DNA from: Acidobacteriota bacterium
GTDB lineage: Bacteria > Acidobacteriota > Vicinamibacteria > Vicinamibacterales > JAFNAJ01
Direction: 5' to 3'
Length of the DNA: 64,000 bases
NCBI GenBank assembly: GCA_023384575.1
Contig: JAHDVP010000010.1
Span: 62,001 to 126,000 of the forward strand
A program made the translations under genes and the position numbers. Below the pieces are notes generated by a model. That model searched no databases. It saw only the letters and a program-made list of their open reading frames with translations, and was not told the origin of the DNA. Of this stretch, positions 1 to 8,661 are shown in pieces; within the stretch, counting starts at the first letter, position 1, and every line of letters starts with the position of its first letter.

Positions 1-343
1 CGGCGAGCGTCTTCATCGAGCACGGCACGATGACCATCCCCTCGCACCGCTGGCTGCCGCTCGCCAGCTTCGCCCCGAGATCCTTGTTGCTGTGCAGCCG
101 GAGCGAGCCGCGACCGACCTCGTCGCCCCAGCGGTCGGCGAGAAACCCCGGCCATCGCTCGACGGCGGCGTCGTGACCCATCTCGTCGCGAAGAAGGCGC
201 CGTCCGTACTCGGTCACGACCAGATCGAGCTCGCATCCCTGGGCGAGCAGGGCCGCGACGGTGCGGGCGGCGTAGATGGCGCCCGACGCCCCGGTCACGG
301 CCACCGCGATGTTGCGCGCGCGCGCGACGGATTCAGCCGACAT
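1..343 (-). CDS. UbiX-type flavin prenyltransferase, 3' end outside window (partial)
   Basis: UbiX-family enzymes prenylate FMN to make the cofactor of UbiD-type decarboxylases. The N-terminal 114 residues are visible. They include the family nucleotide-binding segment VTGASGAIYA near residue 17 and the later segment VIVPCSMKTLA, where the window edge cuts the gene. The ATG at 343 overlaps the end of the upstream UbiA-type gene by 11 bp, which suggests translational coupling. The gene closes a menaquinone (futalosine) cluster here. Its likely job is to support the UbiD-like decarboxylation that follows prenylation of dihydroxynaphthoate; that role is inferred from context. The UbiD partner would lie to the left of the window. 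Confidence 0.85.
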   Translation of the reverse strand, partial: MSAESVARARNIAVAVTGASGAIYAARTVAALLAQGCELDLVVTEYGRRLLRDEMGHDAAVERWPGFLADRWGDEVGRGSLRLHSNKDLGAKLASGSQRCEGMVIVPCSMKTLA

Positions 344-1187
344 AGAGCGCCACTCCCGTCGTCAGCAGGTACAGGACGCCGACGTAGCCGTTCAGATCGA
401 AGGCCTGCTTGACCTTCGACAGGTCGTCGGCCCGGACGAGCGACTGCTCGTAGGCGAGCAGCAGCGCGACGGCCGCCACGCCGGCGTGGTAGATCGCGCC
501 GAGGCCGGCGAGGTGTCCGAGCGCGAACAACGATCCGACCGTCACCACGTGCAGCCCCCGCGAGATCGCCAGGGCCGTCGGCACGCCGAAGCGGACCGGG
601 ATCGAGCGCAGGCCGTGGGTCCGGTCGAAGTCGAGGTCCTGGCAGGCGTAGAGGACGTCGAACCCGCCGACCCAGGTACCGATGGCGACAGCCAGCCAGA
701 CCGGCTCCCACCCCAGACCACCGCCGGCGGCCAGCCATCCTCCCACGGGGGCGACCGCCATCGCCAGCCCGAGGAAGAACTGCGTGCTCCAGGTGAAGCG
801 TTTGGCGAGCGAGTACCAGAAGACGATGGCCAGCGCCACGGGCGAGAGAGCGAAGCAGATCGGCCCGAGTTGCCACGCCGAGACGACGAACCCGACCGAC
901 GCGACGCCGACGAACCACGTCGCCTCGGCCCGTGACATGCGCCCCTGGGGCAGCTCGCGCATCGTCGTGCGGGGGTTCAACGCGTCGAACCTGGCGTCGA
1001 CCAGCCGGTTGAAACCCATCGCGGCGCTCCTCGCCGTCACCATCGCCACGAGAATCCACCAGACGCGCCACGGCGTGAGCGGCTCGGCGCGTGCCGCGAG
1101 CAGCGCGCCGACCAGGGCGAACGGCAGCGCGAAGACCGTGTGGCCCACGCGCACGAACGACGCGTACGTTCTGAGACGCTCGATCAC
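333..1187 (-). CDS. UbiA-family prenyltransferase of the menaquinone pathway (MqnP-like)
   Basis: This integral membrane protein would transfer a polyprenyl chain to an aromatic acceptor. The family aspartate-rich motifs are present: NRLVDARFD near residue 61 and a second motif, DLDFDRTHG, near residue 185. About eight hydrophobic segments are spread over 284 residues, a normal length. In-frame starts are GTG at 1187 and TTG at 1190; the GTG is chosen because an AGG-rich stretch sits about 5 bases upstream. The gene lies between an MqnX-like deaminase and a UbiX-type gene in a run with mqnA and mqnC. A 1,4-dihydroxy-6-naphthoate prenyltransferase therefore fits better than a ubiquinone UbiA, but the substrate is inferred from the neighbours. 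Confidence 0.85.
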   Translation of the reverse strand: MIERLRTYASFVRVGHTVFALPFALVGALLAARAEPLTPWRVWWILVAMVTARSAAMGFNRLVDARFDALNPRTTMRELPQGRMSRAEATWFVGVASVGFVVSAWQLGPICFALSPVALAIVFWYSLAKRFTWSTQFFLGLAMAVAPVGGWLAAGGGLGWEPVWLAVAIGTWVGGFDVLYACQDLDFDRTHGLRSIPVRFGVPTALAISRGLHVVTVGSLFALGHLAGLGAIYHAGVAAVALLLAYEQSLVRADDLSKVKQAFDLNGYVGVLYLLTTGVALYVG

Positions 1188-1228
1188 CAAGTCCTACCCT
1201 GCTTCGCCGGCAAGCGCGCCGGCGTCCT

Positions 1229-2614
1229 TCACGGCTCCACGAGGTCGCGCAGCCAGTGTACCCGCGACGGCTCGATTCCCGAGACGAGCGCCGCCTCGAC
1301 GTCCGCGACGCCCGGCGGCACGTCGACAGCGACGAGCGCCGGCCGCGCGCCCGCCACGATGGCCCCCAGCCGCCCCTCGACACCCAGGGCCCGCGCGCCA
1401 CCGAGGGTGGCCGCCTCGATCAGCCGGCGCGGCGAGATGTCGGGCGCGAGCCGGCGGAGCGCCGCGAGCTCCGAGAACAGGTTGAGATCGGCGTTGCTCG
1501 CCAGGCTGTCGGTCCCGACGGCGAGGGTGACGCCCGAGGCGAAGAACGCGGCGACCGGGGGCGGGCCGGCCCCCACCCAGACATTGCTGCGCGGACAGGT
1601 GACGAGCGTGGCGTCCCATTGCGCGAGGCGCTCGAGGTCGGCCGCGCCAAGCTGCGTGCCGTGCACGCAGACCATGCGCGGGTGAGCGAACCCGACTCGC
1701 TCGAGGTACTCGACGGGCCCGCACCCGGGGGGCCGCCAGTCTCCCGTCCAGACGCCGAGATCCTCGAGCAGGGTTCGCCACGGCCCGGTGCCATCGGCCA
1801 GCAGCTCCAGCTCCTCGGCCGACTCGGCGAGGTGCACCGACGCCCATCCGGGTGGCTGGGCCGCCGCGGCCCGCCCCACTTCGGCGAACAGGGCCGGAGC
1901 CACCGAATATGGCGCATGGGCCGCGAGACCCGCCCGGAGCCCGCCCGACGGATCTGCCGGAGCCTCGCGCCCTGCCGCGCGTGCGACCACCCTCCGGAAG
2001 ATCGCCCGGTCGAGCCACTCCGCCCGCAACAGGCGGGGCCACCACGTCGGTACCGGCGAGCGGAACCCGAGCAGCTCGCGGAAGAGCACCGACCCATCAG
2101 CCATCGACGACCGGGCCAGGGGCCCCCAGGCCGCGGTGGTATTGCCAATGTCGCCGACCGCCGCGGTACCCGACGCCGCCAGGTCCGCCACGGCGTCCTC
2201 GATGGCGGCCTCGACGCTCACGTGGCCTGCGTGCCGCCGCGCCGATCCTGTCGCGCGAGGCCCAGCCGCCCGTTCGGCCATCAAGCGCCGGACCCAGTCG
2301 CACATCGAGGGCGCGGGGGGCACGAGGCCGCGCATCCACGACAGCTCGAGGTGCGTGTGCGCGTTGATGAGGCCGGGCAGGATGGCGCGGGCCCCGAGGT
2401 CGACGAGCCCACCGCCGCCCTCGTCGAGCGGCGCCCACCCCGCCTGCGGGCCCCATCGCGCCCACACCTCGCGCGCGGGTCCGACGTCGGCGATCGCCTC
2501 CGCGTCCCACACCACCGCGCCGTCCTCGATGGGCGGCCCGACGACCGGAACGACCCACGCCGCGCGACAGCCCCTCACCCGGCCACGAGGCGCGTCCCCT
2601 GGCCTGCCGGGCAT
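1229..2614 (-). CDS. mqnX: amidohydrolase, probable aminodeoxyfutalosine deaminase
   Basis: A metal-dependent amidohydrolase of the cytosine deaminase/chlorohydrolase type, 461 residues. Visible metal and substrate motifs, in order, are NAHTHLE (about residue 85), HAPYS, HLAES, and GTDSLASN near the C terminus. In the futalosine pathway, enzymes of this superfamily deaminate 6-aminodeoxyfutalosine to futalosine in organisms whose hydrolase needs futalosine. The ATG follows the mqnC stop codon directly, with no intergenic base, so the two genes are surely co-transcribed. The MqnX assignment rests on this position as well as the family. A general guanine or S-adenosylhomocysteine deaminase cannot be excluded from motifs alone. 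Confidence 0.75.
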   Translation of the reverse strand: MPGRPGDAPRGRVRGCRAAWVVPVVGPPIEDGAVVWDAEAIADVGPAREVWARWGPQAGWAPLDEGGGGLVDLGARAILPGLINAHTHLELSWMRGLVPPAPSMCDWVRRLMAERAAGPRATGSARRHAGHVSVEAAIEDAVADLAASGTAAVGDIGNTTAAWGPLARSSMADGSVLFRELLGFRSPVPTWWPRLLRAEWLDRAIFRRVVARAAGREAPADPSGGLRAGLAAHAPYSVAPALFAEVGRAAAAQPPGWASVHLAESAEELELLADGTGPWRTLLEDLGVWTGDWRPPGCGPVEYLERVGFAHPRMVCVHGTQLGAADLERLAQWDATLVTCPRSNVWVGAGPPPVAAFFASGVTLAVGTDSLASNADLNLFSELAALRRLAPDISPRRLIEAATLGGARALGVEGRLGAIVAGARPALVAVDVPPGVADVEAALVSGIEPSRVHWLRDLVEP

Positions 2615-3835
2615 CTACTCGGGCGAGGGCGGCGGCACCTGCCGGGCCCGCTTGCCCACCCGGCTGCGCGCGGCGTAGTTGATCAGCTCGGCCGGCATCA
2701 GCGGTTCGCCGTCGCGACGGGCGACATCGAGGCCGAACCGGCGCGGCACGGCGCGCAGCCGGAAGATGGGCTCGCCGAGGATGTCGTAGTGCATGTTGCG
2801 GCGCGCGGCGCGGAACCCGGCGTCCTCGACGTTGCGCACGATCTCCACCTCGTCCATGCAGTAGCTCGCCCCGGCCGCGCGGACGACGTTCTCTTCGATC
2901 ATGACGCTGCCCATGTCGTTGGCGCCGAACGCCAGGCTGAGCTGCCCGACCTTGCCCCCCTGCGTGACCCACGACGCCTGGAGGTTGTCGACGTTGTCGA
3001 GGACGACCCTCGCGATGGCCAGCGTGCGAAGGTACTCGACGCCGGTGGCCTCGACGCCCGCGAGCTCCGTGTGCTCGGGCTGATAGCTCCACGTGATGAA
3101 GGCGGTGAAGCCGCCGGTCTCGTCCTGCAGGTCGCGCAGGCGGAACAGGTGCTCGAGCCGCTCGTCGGGCGTCTCGACGCTGCCGTACATCATCGTGGCG
3201 GTCGTGCGCAGCCCGGCCCGGTGCGCCGCCCGCATGACGTCGAGCCACTCGTCCGCCGTCGCCTTCGAGTAGCAGTTGAGCAGCCGGCGCACGCGGTCGA
3301 CGAGGATCTCGGCACCACCACCGGGGATCGAGTCGAGCCCCGCGTCGACGAGCTGCTCGATGACCTCGGCCGGCGTGCGCCTCGACAGACGCGAGAGGTG
3401 GACCACCTCGGGCGGCGAGAGCGCGTGCAGACGGAAATCGGGATAGCGCGCCTTGATGGCACGGAAGAGATCGACGTACCACGTCAGCGGCAGGTCGGGG
3501 TTGTGTCCACCCTGCAGCAGCAGCTGCTCGCCCCCCACCTCGATCGTCTCGTCGATCTTTCGGAAGATGTCGTCGAAGCCGAGCACGTAGCCCTCGGCCG
3601 ACCCGACCGGACGGTAGAACGCGCAGAAGGTGCAGCGCGCGACACAGACGTTCGTGTAGTTGACGTTCCTGTCGATGATGTAGGTGACGACGCCCTCGGG
3701 GTGCCGCCTGGCGCGGATGCCGTCGGCGAGCGCCCCGAGCAGGAGCGTTGGCGCGTTGCGATAGAGGGCCGCCGCTTCGTCGCGGTCGATCCGTTCGCCG
3801 CCCCTCACGCGGTCGGCGATGGCCTGGATGCTCAT
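2615..3835 (-). CDS. mqnC: cyclic dehypoxanthine futalosine synthase (radical SAM)
   Basis: MqnC cyclises dehypoxanthine futalosine, the third core step of the futalosine route to menaquinone. The 406-residue protein carries an intact radical-SAM CX3CX2C motif at Cys64, Cys68 and Cys71, followed by a CofH/MqnC-type TIM barrel (GGHNPDLPL, LHALSPPEV, IPGGGAEIL). The start at 3835 is preceded by a GGGAGAG ribosome-binding site 4 bases away; in-frame sequence further upstream is not family-like. The gene follows mqnA after 38 bp and abuts the deaminase gene downstream. Unlike its MqnE-like neighbour at 4668-5561, this enzyme keeps every cluster-binding cysteine. Confidence 0.95.
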   Translation of the reverse strand: MSIQAIADRVRGGERIDRDEAAALYRNAPTLLLGALADGIRARRHPEGVVTYIIDRNVNYTNVCVARCTFCAFYRPVGSAEGYVLGFDDIFRKIDETIEVGGEQLLLQGGHNPDLPLTWYVDLFRAIKARYPDFRLHALSPPEVVHLSRLSRRTPAEVIEQLVDAGLDSIPGGGAEILVDRVRRLLNCYSKATADEWLDVMRAAHRAGLRTTATMMYGSVETPDERLEHLFRLRDLQDETGGFTAFITWSYQPEHTELAGVEATGVEYLRTLAIARVVLDNVDNLQASWVTQGGKVGQLSLAFGANDMGSVMIEENVVRAAGASYCMDEVEIVRNVEDAGFRAARRNMHYDILGEPIFRLRAVPRRFGLDVARRDGEPLMPAELINYAARSRVGKRARQVPPPSPE

Positions 3836-3873: not shown

Positions 3874-4671
3874 TCAGCGTGGGCCGAACACGGGCCTCGT
3901 GCCGGGCGGCACGAGACCCAGAGCCGCCGCCGACGTGTAATACCGCTCGAGCGCCGCCTCGTGCGCCGGCCCGAGCCCGTACGTGATGTGGTGGCGCAGG
4001 TAGTGCGCCGCCACGCGCTCTCTGGCTTCGTCGCCCGCGGCGTAGGCCGACGCGATCTCGTCGACGGCGGCCACGCCGCGGTCTCGCGCGTCGGCCAGCG
4101 CGCGGCACACGTCGGCCGTGACCACCGGCGGCCGCCCCGCCCAGAACGCCCACACGAACGGCAGGCCCGTCAGGGCCGTCCACTCCTCGCCGAGGTCGAT
4201 CTTCAGCAGCCCGCGGGCGGCGTGGTCGGCAAAGAGCGCAGGGTCTCCGATGACCAGCGCCGCGTCGCACCGCCGCAGCATGTCGTCGAGCGAGGGCGCG
4301 TCGGCCTCCAGCCGGGGCGCGATGTCGAACCGTTCACGACAGAGCACGCGCAGCAGGGCGACCGACGTTCGCGAGCTCGTGTCGAGCGCGATCGAGCCGA
4401 TGGACGCGAGCGGCTTCGAGGAGAATACCGCCACCGACGCCACGGGCCCCTGCGAGGCAATGGCGACGCCGGGCACGACGCGATAGTCGTCGCCCGACGC
4501 GATCTCGATCGACGGGATCAGGCCCAGGTCGATCTGCCCGGCGTGCAGCAGCTCGGCACAACGGGCGGGCACGTCGAACCTCACCGCGAACCGGCCCGGC
4601 ACCGCGTCGAGGCCGTGCACGAGCGGCAGCGTGTTCAGGTAGCCGACGGCACCGAGGCGCAGCCCGCTCAT
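3874..4671 (-). CDS. mqnA: chorismate dehydratase MqnA
   Basis: MqnA dehydrates chorismate to 3-[(1-carboxyvinyl)oxy]benzoate, the committed step of the futalosine menaquinone pathway. The 265-residue protein has the periplasmic-binding-protein-like fold typical of the family. Its N terminus reads LRLGAVGYLNTLPLVHGL and is followed by IDLGLIPSIE and SRTSVALLRVL. Length and layout are normal. Its ATG (4671) overlaps the stop of the MqnE-like gene by the four bases ATGA, a coupling arrangement that ties the degenerate MqnE homologue to mqnA expression. Menaquinone is made in the cytoplasm and inserted in the membrane, so this gene also indicates a naphthoquinone-based respiratory chain. Confidence 0.93.
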   Translation of the reverse strand: MSGLRLGAVGYLNTLPLVHGLDAVPGRFAVRFDVPARCAELLHAGQIDLGLIPSIEIASGDDYRVVPGVAIASQGPVASVAVFSSKPLASIGSIALDTSSRTSVALLRVLCRERFDIAPRLEADAPSLDDMLRRCDAALVIGDPALFADHAARGLLKIDLGEEWTALTGLPFVWAFWAGRPPVVTADVCRALADARDRGVAAVDEIASAYAAGDEARERVAAHYLRHHITYGLGPAHEAALERYYTSAAALGLVPPGTRPVFGPR

Positions 4672-5561
4672 CGCACCCGCACGGCGAAGCGACCGTCGCG
4701 CTCGACGGGCTCGAGCCCCGCCGCGCGGATGTTCCTGACGACCTCCTCGAGAGGCGCGCGCCGGCGGCCTGCCGACAGGTCATCGCGAGGCGACACGGCA
4801 TCGAGATCGTCGGCCCCGAAGAGCAGCGCGACCTGCGCGAGCTTCGGACCGTACAGCGTCCAGTCGACCTGGATGGACGGAACCCCGCTCAGCACCAGCC
4901 TCGCCAGGGCCACGAGCTTGACGTCCTCGTAGCCCGTGGTCGGCTGCGTCGGACTGACCTCCCGCGGGAGCGGCGCGAAGGCGTGGACCGCGCCCGTCGC
5001 CCGGTGGACGTCGTGCGCCGTCGCAATCGCCGACCACGGACGAGCGGTGTCGAGGCGAGCCGTCACGAACCGGGAAGGGCGGCAGGCCGCCCTGACGACC
5101 GCGTCGACGCTCGTGACGGGCTCACGCAGGCGGTCGAGCGGGGCCTCGGCAATGCCGGCGACGCCCGCCTCGACCAGGCGGGCCGCGAGATCGGCCAGGG
5201 CATCCGGCGTCGCGCACAGCCTTTCGAGATCCGCGAGCGAATAGGCGGTCACCGGCGTGCCGCCCGCCTGGCCGACGACCTGACGCGCCACGGCGACCGC
5301 CGTCTCGGCGTCCGGAGGCGCCCCGACCAGTCGCACCTCCGCCGTTCCGGGATCGAGGTCGACCGACGCCGCGGCCTCGATCGGCACGTCGCTCACGCGC
5401 ACGAAGGTGATCCGGGCGTCGTGGCGCGCGCGACGGGCCTGCTCGGCCAGCACGCCGAGGTGGACCAGGTCGCGCGTGGCCCACAGGGTGGCCGCATCGT
5501 CGTGCGAGAGGGGCACACCCGCCTGCAGGCGCGCCGCGACGTCGTCGAGAAGCGAAGGCAT
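4668..5561 (-). CDS. MqnE (aminofutalosine synthase) homologue without radical-SAM cysteines
   Basis: The 297-residue product resembles MqnE/CofH proteins at both ends. An N-terminal helical region (LLDDVAARLQAGVPLSHDDA) leads to the place where these enzymes bind the 4Fe-4S cluster. The C-terminal block has TTGYEDVKLVALARLVL and LALLFGADDLD-like sequence (VALLFGADDLDAV). The CX3CX2C motif expected around residue 60 is absent: only two cysteines exist, both isolated. The protein is also about 70 residues shorter than a typical MqnE. It cannot use S-adenosylmethionine in the normal way. It overlaps mqnA by 4 bp and is kept as an open, family-like frame, so it may be a scaffold, a regulator or a partner of a true MqnE encoded elsewhere. 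Pseudogenisation by deletion is the alternative. The ATG at 5561 starts 11 bp after the upstream stop. Confidence 0.75.
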   Translation of the reverse strand: MPSLLDDVAARLQAGVPLSHDDAATLWATRDLVHLGVLAEQARRARHDARITFVRVSDVPIEAAASVDLDPGTAEVRLVGAPPDAETAVAVARQVVGQAGGTPVTAYSLADLERLCATPDALADLAARLVEAGVAGIAEAPLDRLREPVTSVDAVVRAACRPSRFVTARLDTARPWSAIATAHDVHRATGAVHAFAPLPREVSPTQPTTGYEDVKLVALARLVLSGVPSIQVDWTLYGPKLAQVALLFGADDLDAVSPRDDLSAGRRRAPLEEVVRNIRAAGLEPVERDGRFAVRVR

Positions 5562-5572
5562 GTTCCCGGCCC

Positions 5573-6559
5573 TCAGGACGGCAGTACCGCCGCGGCGGCC
5601 GACGGGCCGCCGGCCGCCGGCTGGTGCTCGATGCACTCGGTGATCCGGCGAGCGAGGTCGAGCGCACGACGCCCGTCGAGGCCCGCCACCCGCGGCGGCC
5701 GACGAGTCCGTACGGCCTCGACGAAGTCGGCAAGCTCCAGCTTCAGCGGCTCGTCGCGCGCGACCTCGAGGCGCCCGCCCTCGATGGCCGGCACCGCCCC
5801 GTCGCGCCGAGCGAGCGTCCAGCGTTCGACCTCCTGGCTGGCGTAGTCGATCGAGATGTACGCCGAGGGCTGGAAGAAGCGCACCTTGCGCACGCGCTCG
5901 CGGCTGATGCGGCTCGCCGTCAGGTTGGCGATGCAGCCCGAGGCGAAGCGCAGCCGCGCGTTGGCGATGTCGACCCGCCCGGTCAGCACCGGCACGCCGA
6001 CGGCCTCGATCGCCACGACGTCGCTCCGGACGGTGGCCAGCAACACGTCGAGGTCGTGAATCATGAGATCGAAGACGACATCGATGTCGAGGCTGCGCTC
6101 GGGGAAGGTCCCGAGCCGGTGGACCTCGACGAAGCCCGGCGTCGTGATGAGCGGGAGCGCCGCGGACACGGCGGGGTTGAAGCGCTCGGTGTGGCCGATC
6201 GCCAGCACCGCCGACGCCCGGGCCGCCGCTGCGATGAGGTCGTCGGCCTCCTCGAGGGTCCGCGCCATCGGCTTCTCCACCAGCACGCCGAGGCCCCGAT
6301 CGAGCAGGCCCCGCGCAATCGCGTGGTGCGACTCGGTCGGCGTCACGACGGTGGCCGCGTCGAGGTGCTCGATGACGTCGCCCACGTCGGCGGCCGCGCG
6401 CGTCCCCGCCGACGCCGCCACGTCCCTGGCGCGGTCGGCGTTCCGGTCGACGACGGCCACGAGGTCGACGCCGGGCAGCTGCGACAGGATCCTGGCGTGG
6501 TGGCGTCCGAGATACCCCACGCCGACGACCGCGACCCGCACGGGGGAGTCGTCACGCAT
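5573..6559 (-). CDS. Gfo/Idh/MocA-family NAD(P)-dependent oxidoreductase in the lipid A operon
   Basis: An N-terminal Rossmann fold ([17 protein letters not shown]), the EKPMA motif near residue 95 and the C-terminal alpha/beta dimerisation domain identify a Gfo/Idh/MocA sugar oxidoreductase of 328 residues. The ATG at 6559 is chosen because GGAGGGG lies 6 bases upstream; it overlaps the lpxI stop by 8 bp. Genes of this family often accompany lpxA-lpxI-lpxB. One known role in lipid A is GnnA, the UDP-GlcNAc 3-dehydrogenase that works with the aminotransferase GnnB. No GnnB candidate lies next to it here, so the substrate is uncertain. A cytoplasmic nucleotide-sugar dehydrogenase is the most likely function. 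Confidence 0.8.
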
Positions 6560-7400
6560 CGCGTGCCCCTCCGCGGTCGCCGCCCGTCGCGCGTCCCCAG
6601 ACGGCAATCCCGGCCTCGTCGGCCGCGCGAAAGAACGCCTCGCCGTCGAGGACGAGCGTCCGCCCGGCGTCGATCGAGATCGCCGTCGCCCCTGCGCCTC
6701 GCATCGCGTCGACGGTGGCCATCCCGACGACAGGCACGTCGAACCGCATGTCCTGGCCGGGCTTGGCGACCTTCACGACCGCGGTCCCGCTGCCCGCCAG
6801 GCGGCCGGCCCGGGCGATGACCTCGTCGGTGCCTTCCATCGCCTCGACCGCGACGACCGCCCGGTCCTTCACCACGATCGTCTGGCCGATGTCGAGGCCG
6901 GCGATGGTATCGGCCATCCGATACCCGAAGCTGAAGTCGTCGGCTTCCTGAGGTGTCGGCGCGCGGCGACCGAGCGCGCCCTCGCGGGCGAGCAGCGGGG
7001 CCAGGTAGACGGTGGAATCGAGCAGCTCGATGCCCCGCTCGCCCATGACCTCGGCCACGGCCGCAATCAGCGAGTCGGTGTTCTTCTGGCGGAGGCGGGT
7101 CAACACCGACAGCAGCGTGAGATCGGGGAGGATGCCCGAGAAGATCTTCGTGTGCTTGACCTGCCCCGCCATCACTGCCTGCGTGACGCCCGCCGCCTTC
7201 AGGACGGCAATGGCCTTGCCGAGGTGGCCGAGCGACACCCAGTGTACGTCGGCCCCGCGCGCCTCGGCGGCATCGGCCAGTTCGGGAAACGCCTCTTCCT
7301 TCACCGCGACGACGGTCACCTCGTGCCCCATCGCCCGCGCGGCGTCGAGCACGAGGAAGGGAAACCGGCCGTTGCCGGCGATCAGGCCGACCCGCGTCAT
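6552..7400 (-). CDS. lpxI: UDP-2,3-diacylglucosamine pyrophosphatase LpxI
   Basis: LpxI hydrolyses UDP-2,3-diacylglucosamine to lipid X and UMP, replacing LpxH in many bacteria outside the Gammaproteobacteria. The 282-residue protein starts [20 protein letters not shown], contains GQVKHTKIF and [11 protein letters not shown], and ends with the family block [22 protein letters not shown]. The ATG at 7400 has a GAGGGGG site 4-5 bases upstream and lies 10 bp after the fabZ-lpxA stop. Direct adjacency to lpxA supports the assignment. An extended upstream frame exists but runs inside lpxA and shows no family similarity. Confidence 0.93.
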
Positions 7401-7410
7401 GCGCGCCCCC

Positions 7411-8661
7411 TCACTCCTCGTCCCCGGCCTCGTCGGAGCGAGGCGCCCGGCGCAAGGTGACCCCGCGCGTCGAGGTGCGGATGAACTCGACGAGGTACAT
7501 GACGTCGGCACAGCCGCGGAGCCCGGCGTCGCGCTCGATCTCCGCGAGCGCTCCGGTGGTGTTGAGCTTCGACTGCAGCAGCACCCGGTAGGCGCGGCGC
7601 AGGGCGTCGACGGTCTCCGGAGCGAACCCCCTCCGCACCAAGCCGATCCGGTTCAGGCCGAAGATCCTGGCGCGGTTGCCGACCGTCTTGGCAAACGGCA
7701 GGGCGTCCTTCGTGACGACCGAATAGCCGCCGATGAAGGCATGGCGGCCGATGCGGCAGAACTGGTGCACCCCGGAGAAGGCGCTGATCGTGGCGCAGTC
7801 CTCGACCACGACGTGCCCGCCGAGCGTGGCGGCGTTGCCGAAGATCGTGTCGTGCCCCACGTGGCAGTCGTGCGCCACGTGCGCGTACGCCATGAACAGG
7901 TTGCGATCGCCGATGGTTGTCATCCCGCCCCCGCCGGCCGTCCCGCGGTGGATGGTGACGAACTCGCGGAAGACGTTCAGGCTCCCGATCGAGAGCCGCG
8001 TCGGCTCGCCGCGGTACTTCAGGTCCTGCGGCGGAAGGCCAATCGAGGCGTACGGGTAGATCTGCGTGTCGTCGCCGATCTCCGTCCAGCCCTCGACGAT
8101 GGCCCCGGTGCCGATGCGGCACCGGCGGCCGACCCGCACGTGCGGCCCGACGACGGCCTGGGCCTCGACCACGGTCCCGTCGCCGAGCCGGGCGTCGGGA
8201 TGGACGCGGGCCAGCGGGTCGACCAACGCGCCCTGCGTCTCGAGGCCGAGCCAGAGATCGGCCTCGGCGACGACCTGATCGCCCACGTAGGCCTCGCCTC
8301 GCACGCGGGCGAGCGCGCGCCGGCGCGCCAGCACGGTCACCTCGAGGCGGACCGCATCGCCCGGGACCACCTGCCGGCGGAACTTGGCGTTGTCGACGCC
8401 CCGGAGGAAGGCTCGCCCCCCCGGCACGAGGCCGGCCTCGGTCACGAGCAGCGACGCCGCCTGCGCGAGCGACTCGATCATGAGCACGCCCGGCATCAGG
8501 GGCAGGCCGGGGAAATGTCCCTGGAAGAAGTCTTCGGTGACGGTGACGTTCTTGACGGCGACGACGCGCGCGCCGGGTTCGAGCGACGTCACCGCATCGA
8601 CGAGCGGCGTGGGGTATGCGTGGCGGAGGCGGCGAGCCGCCCGGGGCATGGTGATCGACAC
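7411..8661 (-). CDS. fused beta-hydroxyacyl-ACP dehydratase (FabZ) and UDP-GlcNAc acyltransferase (LpxA)
   Basis: One 416-residue frame joins two enzymes. Residues about 18-145 form a hotdog-fold FabZ domain with the catalytic histidine in GHFPG and the acidic residue in [14 protein letters not shown]. Residues about 150-416 form the LpxA left-handed beta-helix of hexapeptide repeats, with the catalytic histidine in [11 protein letters not shown], then the C-terminal helical domain. FabZ dehydrates 3-hydroxyacyl-ACP, while LpxA consumes the same 3-hydroxyacyl-ACP for lipid A, so the two domains compete at a metabolic branch point. fabZ and lpxA are normally neighbours; here they are one gene. 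The start is uncertain: GTG at 8661 or ATG at 8649, neither with a strong ribosome-binding site. Confidence 0.92.

Follow-up and report, generated by a model that had tools for sequence, protein, structure and literature searches.

A conserved cluster-less homologue of MqnE in the menaquinone operon of a bacterial order, rated as a putative pseudoenzyme

What might a protein built like aminofutalosine synthase (MqnE) do once the ligands of its radical-SAM cluster are gone? The question is raised by a gene, referred to here as X, that directly precedes mqnA in a 64-kb stretch of an Acidobacteriota genome (the window). The initial annotation, made from the letters of this DNA, had described the product of X as aligning with MqnE/CofH at both ends while lacking the cluster motif, and had offered two readings: a scaffold or regulator, or a former enzyme with a cluster-free reaction. 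The genes around X are as follows.

333..1190, minus strand: UbiA-family prenyltransferase, MqnP-like (curated and Pfam models)
1229..2614, minus strand: amidohydrolase; top curated models TRZ/ATZ hydrolase and aminofutalosine deaminase family hydrolase (109 bits, short of the cut-off of 320)
2615..3835, minus strand: mqnC, cluster-bearing (TIGR03699, 481 bits, above the cut-off of 428.1; start inferred from homology)
3874..4671, minus strand: mqnA (PF02621, 187 bits)
4668..4671, minus strand: overlap of the X stop (TGA) and the mqnA start (ATG), read in the sequence as ATGA
4668..5561, minus strand: X, cluster-less MqnE-like protein of 297 aa; intact ORF, predicted complete (beta/alpha)8 barrel
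5573..6607, minus strand: Gfo-like oxidoreductase, conserved across the order as the upstream neighbour of X (presumably of the Gfo/Idh/MocA type)

The translation of X contains only two cysteines, C116 and C160, neither of them conserved, and no CX3CX2C motif, just as the initial annotation had it. The 4-bp overlap with mqnA is likewise present (ATGA at 4671-4668). Among curated models the MqnE model TIGR03700 ranked first for X; the match (E 6e-19) came mainly via the C-terminal part and reached 68.1 bits against a cut-off of 434.55. The MqnC model TIGR03699 scored nearly as high (62.9 bits). The Pfam family CofH_C (PF19288) matched at 37.6 bits, above its gathering cut-off of 27, and Radical_SAM (PF04055) gave no match at E <= 1. 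When the profile of X was compared with that of the order's true MqnE, 292 columns aligned (99.6%, E 2e-24), which indicates homology from end to end. X is therefore a collinear MqnE-type protein minus pieces, and not a protein that merely has a short domain in common with MqnE.

The structural model agreed with this assignment. AlphaFold2 folded X, from an 82-row alignment, into eight strands in TIM-barrel order (pLDDT 96.1, pTM 0.92; the corresponding model of true MqnE had a pLDDT of 84.8). When the X model was searched against the PDB with Foldseek, the top four matches were all to MqnE (crystal structures 6XIG and 6XI9; TMq ~0.81, E from 5e-18), followed by other radical-SAM enzymes at E ~1e-10 or weaker. 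Of the properties expected of a TIGR03700 equivalog, X thus shows the fold and lacks the score, CX3CX2C and the GGG motif. The two proteins also have invariant P, G, A, R, W and D residues in common, but X is ~80 aa shorter and its active-site residues are replaced. MqnC and CofH resemble X in their barrel and CofH_C family; X differs from them in carrying no radical-SAM motif whatever, and a full MqnC is encoded two genes downstream.

To define what has been lost and gained, we compared 70 distinct X sequences with 51 MqnE sequences, using the MqnE numbering of sequence L001. CX3CX2C was found in 0 of the 70; the MqnE cysteines 82, 86 and 89 and the SAM-binding GGG motif (PGGG; G191-193) were deleted in all 70. 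Most other positions that are invariant in MqnE were gone or replaced (N73, H125, K156, N230, T232, H237, H303, K305 and T330), some of them by residues that are themselves near-invariant in X (N73 by V56, H125 by R77, K305 by Q231, T330 by V256). G265, R267 and R268 are new in X. The loss of the cysteines and of GGG excludes radical-SAM chemistry by X, to the extent that this can be judged from sequence, and with the cluster ligands gone aminofutalosine synthase activity is not expected. The exchange of polar side chains for aliphatic ones (N to V, T to V, T to L) argues for an active site that was probably filled rather than rebuilt.

Despite these losses X is under clear constraint. Between close species pairs, dN/dS of X was 0.05-0.22 by YN00 (median ~0.13) and 0.10-0.32 by NG86, slightly above the values for mqnA and mqnC. 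Eight residues are invariant in the 82-row alignment (P197, G210, D213, A218, W234, Q243, G249 and G265), and many further positions are more than 90% conserved. This purifying selection and the near-invariant residues rule out a pseudogene or a gene with relaxed constraint; the initial annotation had argued against a decaying pseudogene from the intact frame. Loss of catalytic motifs combined with purifying selection is the mark of a conserved pseudoenzyme, and we rate X as a putative conserved pseudoenzyme of the MqnE family.

If X does not catalyse the MqnE reaction, another protein might. The initial annotation had noted that a true mqnE and mqnD are not in the 64-kb window and had proposed checking the genome for a second mqnE with cysteines. 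Neither gene lies in the window, and a true MqnE scoring 488 bits, above the cut-off of 434.55, is encoded on another contig, about 6 kb from mqnD. An absence of mqnE from this genome is thereby ruled out. With MqnA and MqnC in the window and MqnE and MqnD on the other contig, all four futalosine enzymes are present without counting X. Neither of the two outcomes named beforehand as contrary to the initial reading, an absent mqnE together with lost constraint or a placement of X outside the MqnE family, was observed.

X proved to be a property of the whole order, a group of soil bacteria. The search covered 193 genomes of the class, 162 of which are from the same order, and X (counted at E below 1e-18) was present in 138 of the 162, nearly always together with MqnE. 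Every exception that was examined lacks the pathway or is broken by a contig end. Seven genomes of family f4 (G071-G077) and G088 are without mqnA, mqnC, mqnD and full mqnE as well as X. In three others (G037, G053 and G108) the contig ends in or beside mqnA or mqnC. No mqnC was found in most of the remaining X-less genomes, so the contig with the operon is missing from them. Sporadic loss of X among members of the order was considered and rejected, since the exceptions examined are contig ends (loci L141, L142 and L117) or the pathway-less genomes (f4, G088); among the genomes of the order no case was seen of an intact upstream flank of mqnA-mqnC without X. The order Gfo-X-mqnA-mqnC holds wherever the contig is long enough, except in genus g22. 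G008, which also lacks X, had no full-length MqnE or MqnC match, and MqnA and MqnD were likewise missing where searched. From their gene content, the futalosine pathway seems to have been lost or replaced in f4, G088 and G008. Outside the order, single-sequence and profile searches of 396 genomes of the phylum found no X. The single-sequence search matched only true MqnE there; the later profile search exposed a separate case, described below.

Where did X come from? Three related families of the class (f16, f18 and f19) have the gene order mqnE-mqnA-mqnC with a cluster-bearing mqnE, so X sits in the position of mqnE. A tree of full-length sequences placed X, as one monophyletic group, on the MqnE side (SH-aLRT 97); its stem was long, at 3.4 substitutions per site. 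We infer from synteny and this tree that X derives from mqnE rather than mqnC, and it looks like a former resident mqnE refitted with conserved residues of its own. Descent from mqnC, with the mqnE slot taken later, could be argued from the near-equal MqnC score and from the well-aligned C-terminal part: trees on 113 C-terminal columns left X unplaced with respect to MqnE or MqnC, and an AU test restricted to such columns did not decide whether X groups with operonic MqnE, the order's own MqnE or MqnC (X plus MqnC, p 0.50). We nevertheless consider this origin very unlikely, given that X stands where mqnE stands in related families with mqnC still downstream, and that the full-length tree points to the MqnE side.

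Genus g22 departs from the common arrangement. In both of its genomes (G055 and G056; loci L143-L146), X adjoins mqnC and mqnA is located elsewhere. X, MqnA, MqnC and MqnD are present, and MqnE was not found in these two draft MAGs. The genes on either side of mqnE in relatives are direct neighbours in G056, with ORF ends 23 bases apart (L143:15491-15514); mqnE is therefore gone from its usual site, and has not been cut off by a contig end. Either mqnE has moved to a place that was not assembled or g22 makes aminofutalosine differently.

From the established homology, motif loss, selection, replacement at the locus and true MqnE elsewhere, we infer a role for X as a non-catalytic, putative partner or scaffold of the futalosine enzymes, descended from the resident mqnE; this is a proposal to which we give roughly even credence. 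In such a history, X would go back to the mqnE that once stood in an old operon of the arrangement mqnE-mqnA-mqnC. The radical-SAM reaction would be supplied in this bacterial order by a second, divergent MqnE whose gene now lies near mqnD, and the operonic copy would have dropped the [4Fe-4S] loop, the SAM-binding GGG and most active-site residues while retaining the TIM barrel and the CofH_C end. Purifying selection would hold X as a non-catalytic protein that joins MqnA, MqnC or MqnE, or stabilises one of them, and the overlapping start may keep its production in step with that of MqnA. The lost catalytic signatures and the hydrophobic replacements in the predicted active site make us lean towards a non-catalytic role. 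Evolutionary-rate covariation (X-Gfo 0.32, X-MqnC 0.29, X-MqnE 0.17, X-MqnA 0.16) singled out no partner, as no pair survived correction for 21 pairs. If the absences in g22 are real, a genus that keeps X with no detected mqnE and with mqnA outside the operon is hard to reconcile with a partner of MqnE or MqnA alone. Of the initial reading, the constrained, cysteine-less MqnE relative fixed in the mqnA-mqnC operon, with the real mqnE and mqnD elsewhere, is supported; between its two proposals, a non-catalytic role seems likelier than that of a cluster-free former enzyme.

Instead, the barrel might have been refitted for a new task in the futalosine pathway or close to it, be it a non-radical step or the binding of an intermediate. 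Such a cluster-free enzyme could use the polar residues R55, E75, R77, Q231, D233, D252 and D254, which are near-invariant in X and lie on the adjacent strands beta7-beta8-beta1-beta2, and the possibility is kept alive by g22, where X occurs without a detectable MqnE and where, in G056, the conserved mqnE locus does not contain the gene. G557 and G567, which belong to another family, point the same way with matches of cluster-less length, known from match geometry alone, and no MqnE-level match. However, E75, D252 and D254 are invariant in MqnE too and so may be structural, the N-to-V and T-to-V changes would fill a site rather than build one, X and MqnE coexist in nearly all genomes of the order, and the g22 genomes are draft MAGs; we hold a new enzymatic function to be possible though doubtful.

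A position directly before mqnA with a conserved overlap would also suit a regulator: as a ligand-binding remnant of MqnE, X would sense an intermediate of the pathway and adjust MqnA or MqnC. The conserved barrel with its altered polar core could be read in this way. Yet Pfam found no DNA-binding or signalling domain in X and several polar active-site positions are lost, which makes a sensor unlikely. The overlap could even suggest that X is a mere translational spacer or a slowly decaying relic, retained because mqnA needs a coupled upstream ORF: the -4 spacing occurs in 76 of 103 loci, some genomes being counted via more than one locus. This explanation is barely credible. The other 27 loci lack the 4-bp overlap, and a pure spacer is refuted by selection at the protein level, with its X-specific near-invariant residues, and by g22, in which X stays although mqnA has moved away.

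A parallel to X emerged from the profile search of the phylum, which returned short relatives in family f26, of another class. Six of them, listed here, are homologues of MqnC that lack the cluster motif and stand at the canonical mqnC locus.

L284:7711-8643, cluster-less MqnC homologue
L285:7710-8624, cluster-less MqnC homologue
L286:8197-9084, cluster-less MqnC homologue
L287:1652-2605, cluster-less MqnC homologue
L288:2080-3216, cluster-less MqnC homologue
L308:1483-2373, cluster-less MqnC homologue

None of the six sequences contains CX3CX2C. In the tree they fall within the clade of canonical f26 MqnC (100/100; the cluster-less clade itself 100/98), beside the canonical enzymes of G375 and G395, the former from the same genus as several of them. 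Neighbours are held in common with the canonical mqnC of G375 on one side in 6/6 loci and on the other in 3/6. The genomes concerned encode instead an unlinked and divergent MqnC-like enzyme, which scores 300-317 bits and stays below the cut-off; CX3CX2C was kept in all five such enzymes that were read (L341, L348-L351). By score this pattern occurs in 12 genomes, which were chosen for having short matches and so give no frequency within f26; the cluster-less copy is confirmed by sequence in 6. The resident mqnC of f26 thus appears to have become cluster-less at its own locus, independently of X. The two cases are alike in the motifs lost, the locus kept and the unlinked, divergent cluster-bearing copy, but the f26 copies come from canonical MqnC, evolve far faster and have other neighbours.

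Conserved radical-SAM homologues stripped of their cluster are little described, and a search of the open-access literature turned up no account of an MqnE or MqnC without cysteines. The Dph1-Dph2 heterodimer is a radical-SAM enzyme of two unlike subunits, both with Cys-bound clusters (PMC11048331); its pairing of unlike subunits is an analogy only, because X carries no cluster. The two separate cases make it probable that MqnE and MqnC do something non-catalytic that is worth retaining. We tentatively suggest that the futalosine pathway follows a recurrent route, in which the cluster is lost and the barrel kept at its own locus (MqnE in one class, MqnC in another). This would imply that its radical-SAM enzymes serve an essential non-catalytic purpose in some complex, or that a cluster-free protein takes the MqnE step where X occurs without MqnE. 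With X throughout an order in a vitamin K2 (menaquinone) operon, and the MqnC case beside it, the idea that futalosine enzymes work as a complex becomes directly testable. Annotation by gene neighbourhood would label X as MqnE and assign the catalysis to the wrong gene.

Cluster-less matches in G327, G238, G567, G557 and others are known from match geometry alone. Those in G567 (G567:C1:715180-716031, a single-contig genome) and G557 (G557:C38:154528-155259) accompany a canonical MqnC. Upstream of X, the genes at 5573-8661, which we take to be LpxA-like, LpxI-like and Gfo-like, are conserved neighbours of X in the order and did not accompany mqnE in those related families that were examined. 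On the other side, the amidohydrolase and the UbiA-type prenyltransferase extend the operon, and the order of both is conserved across the bacterial order; the amidohydrolase at 1229-2614 is a possible candidate for the aminofutalosine deaminase.
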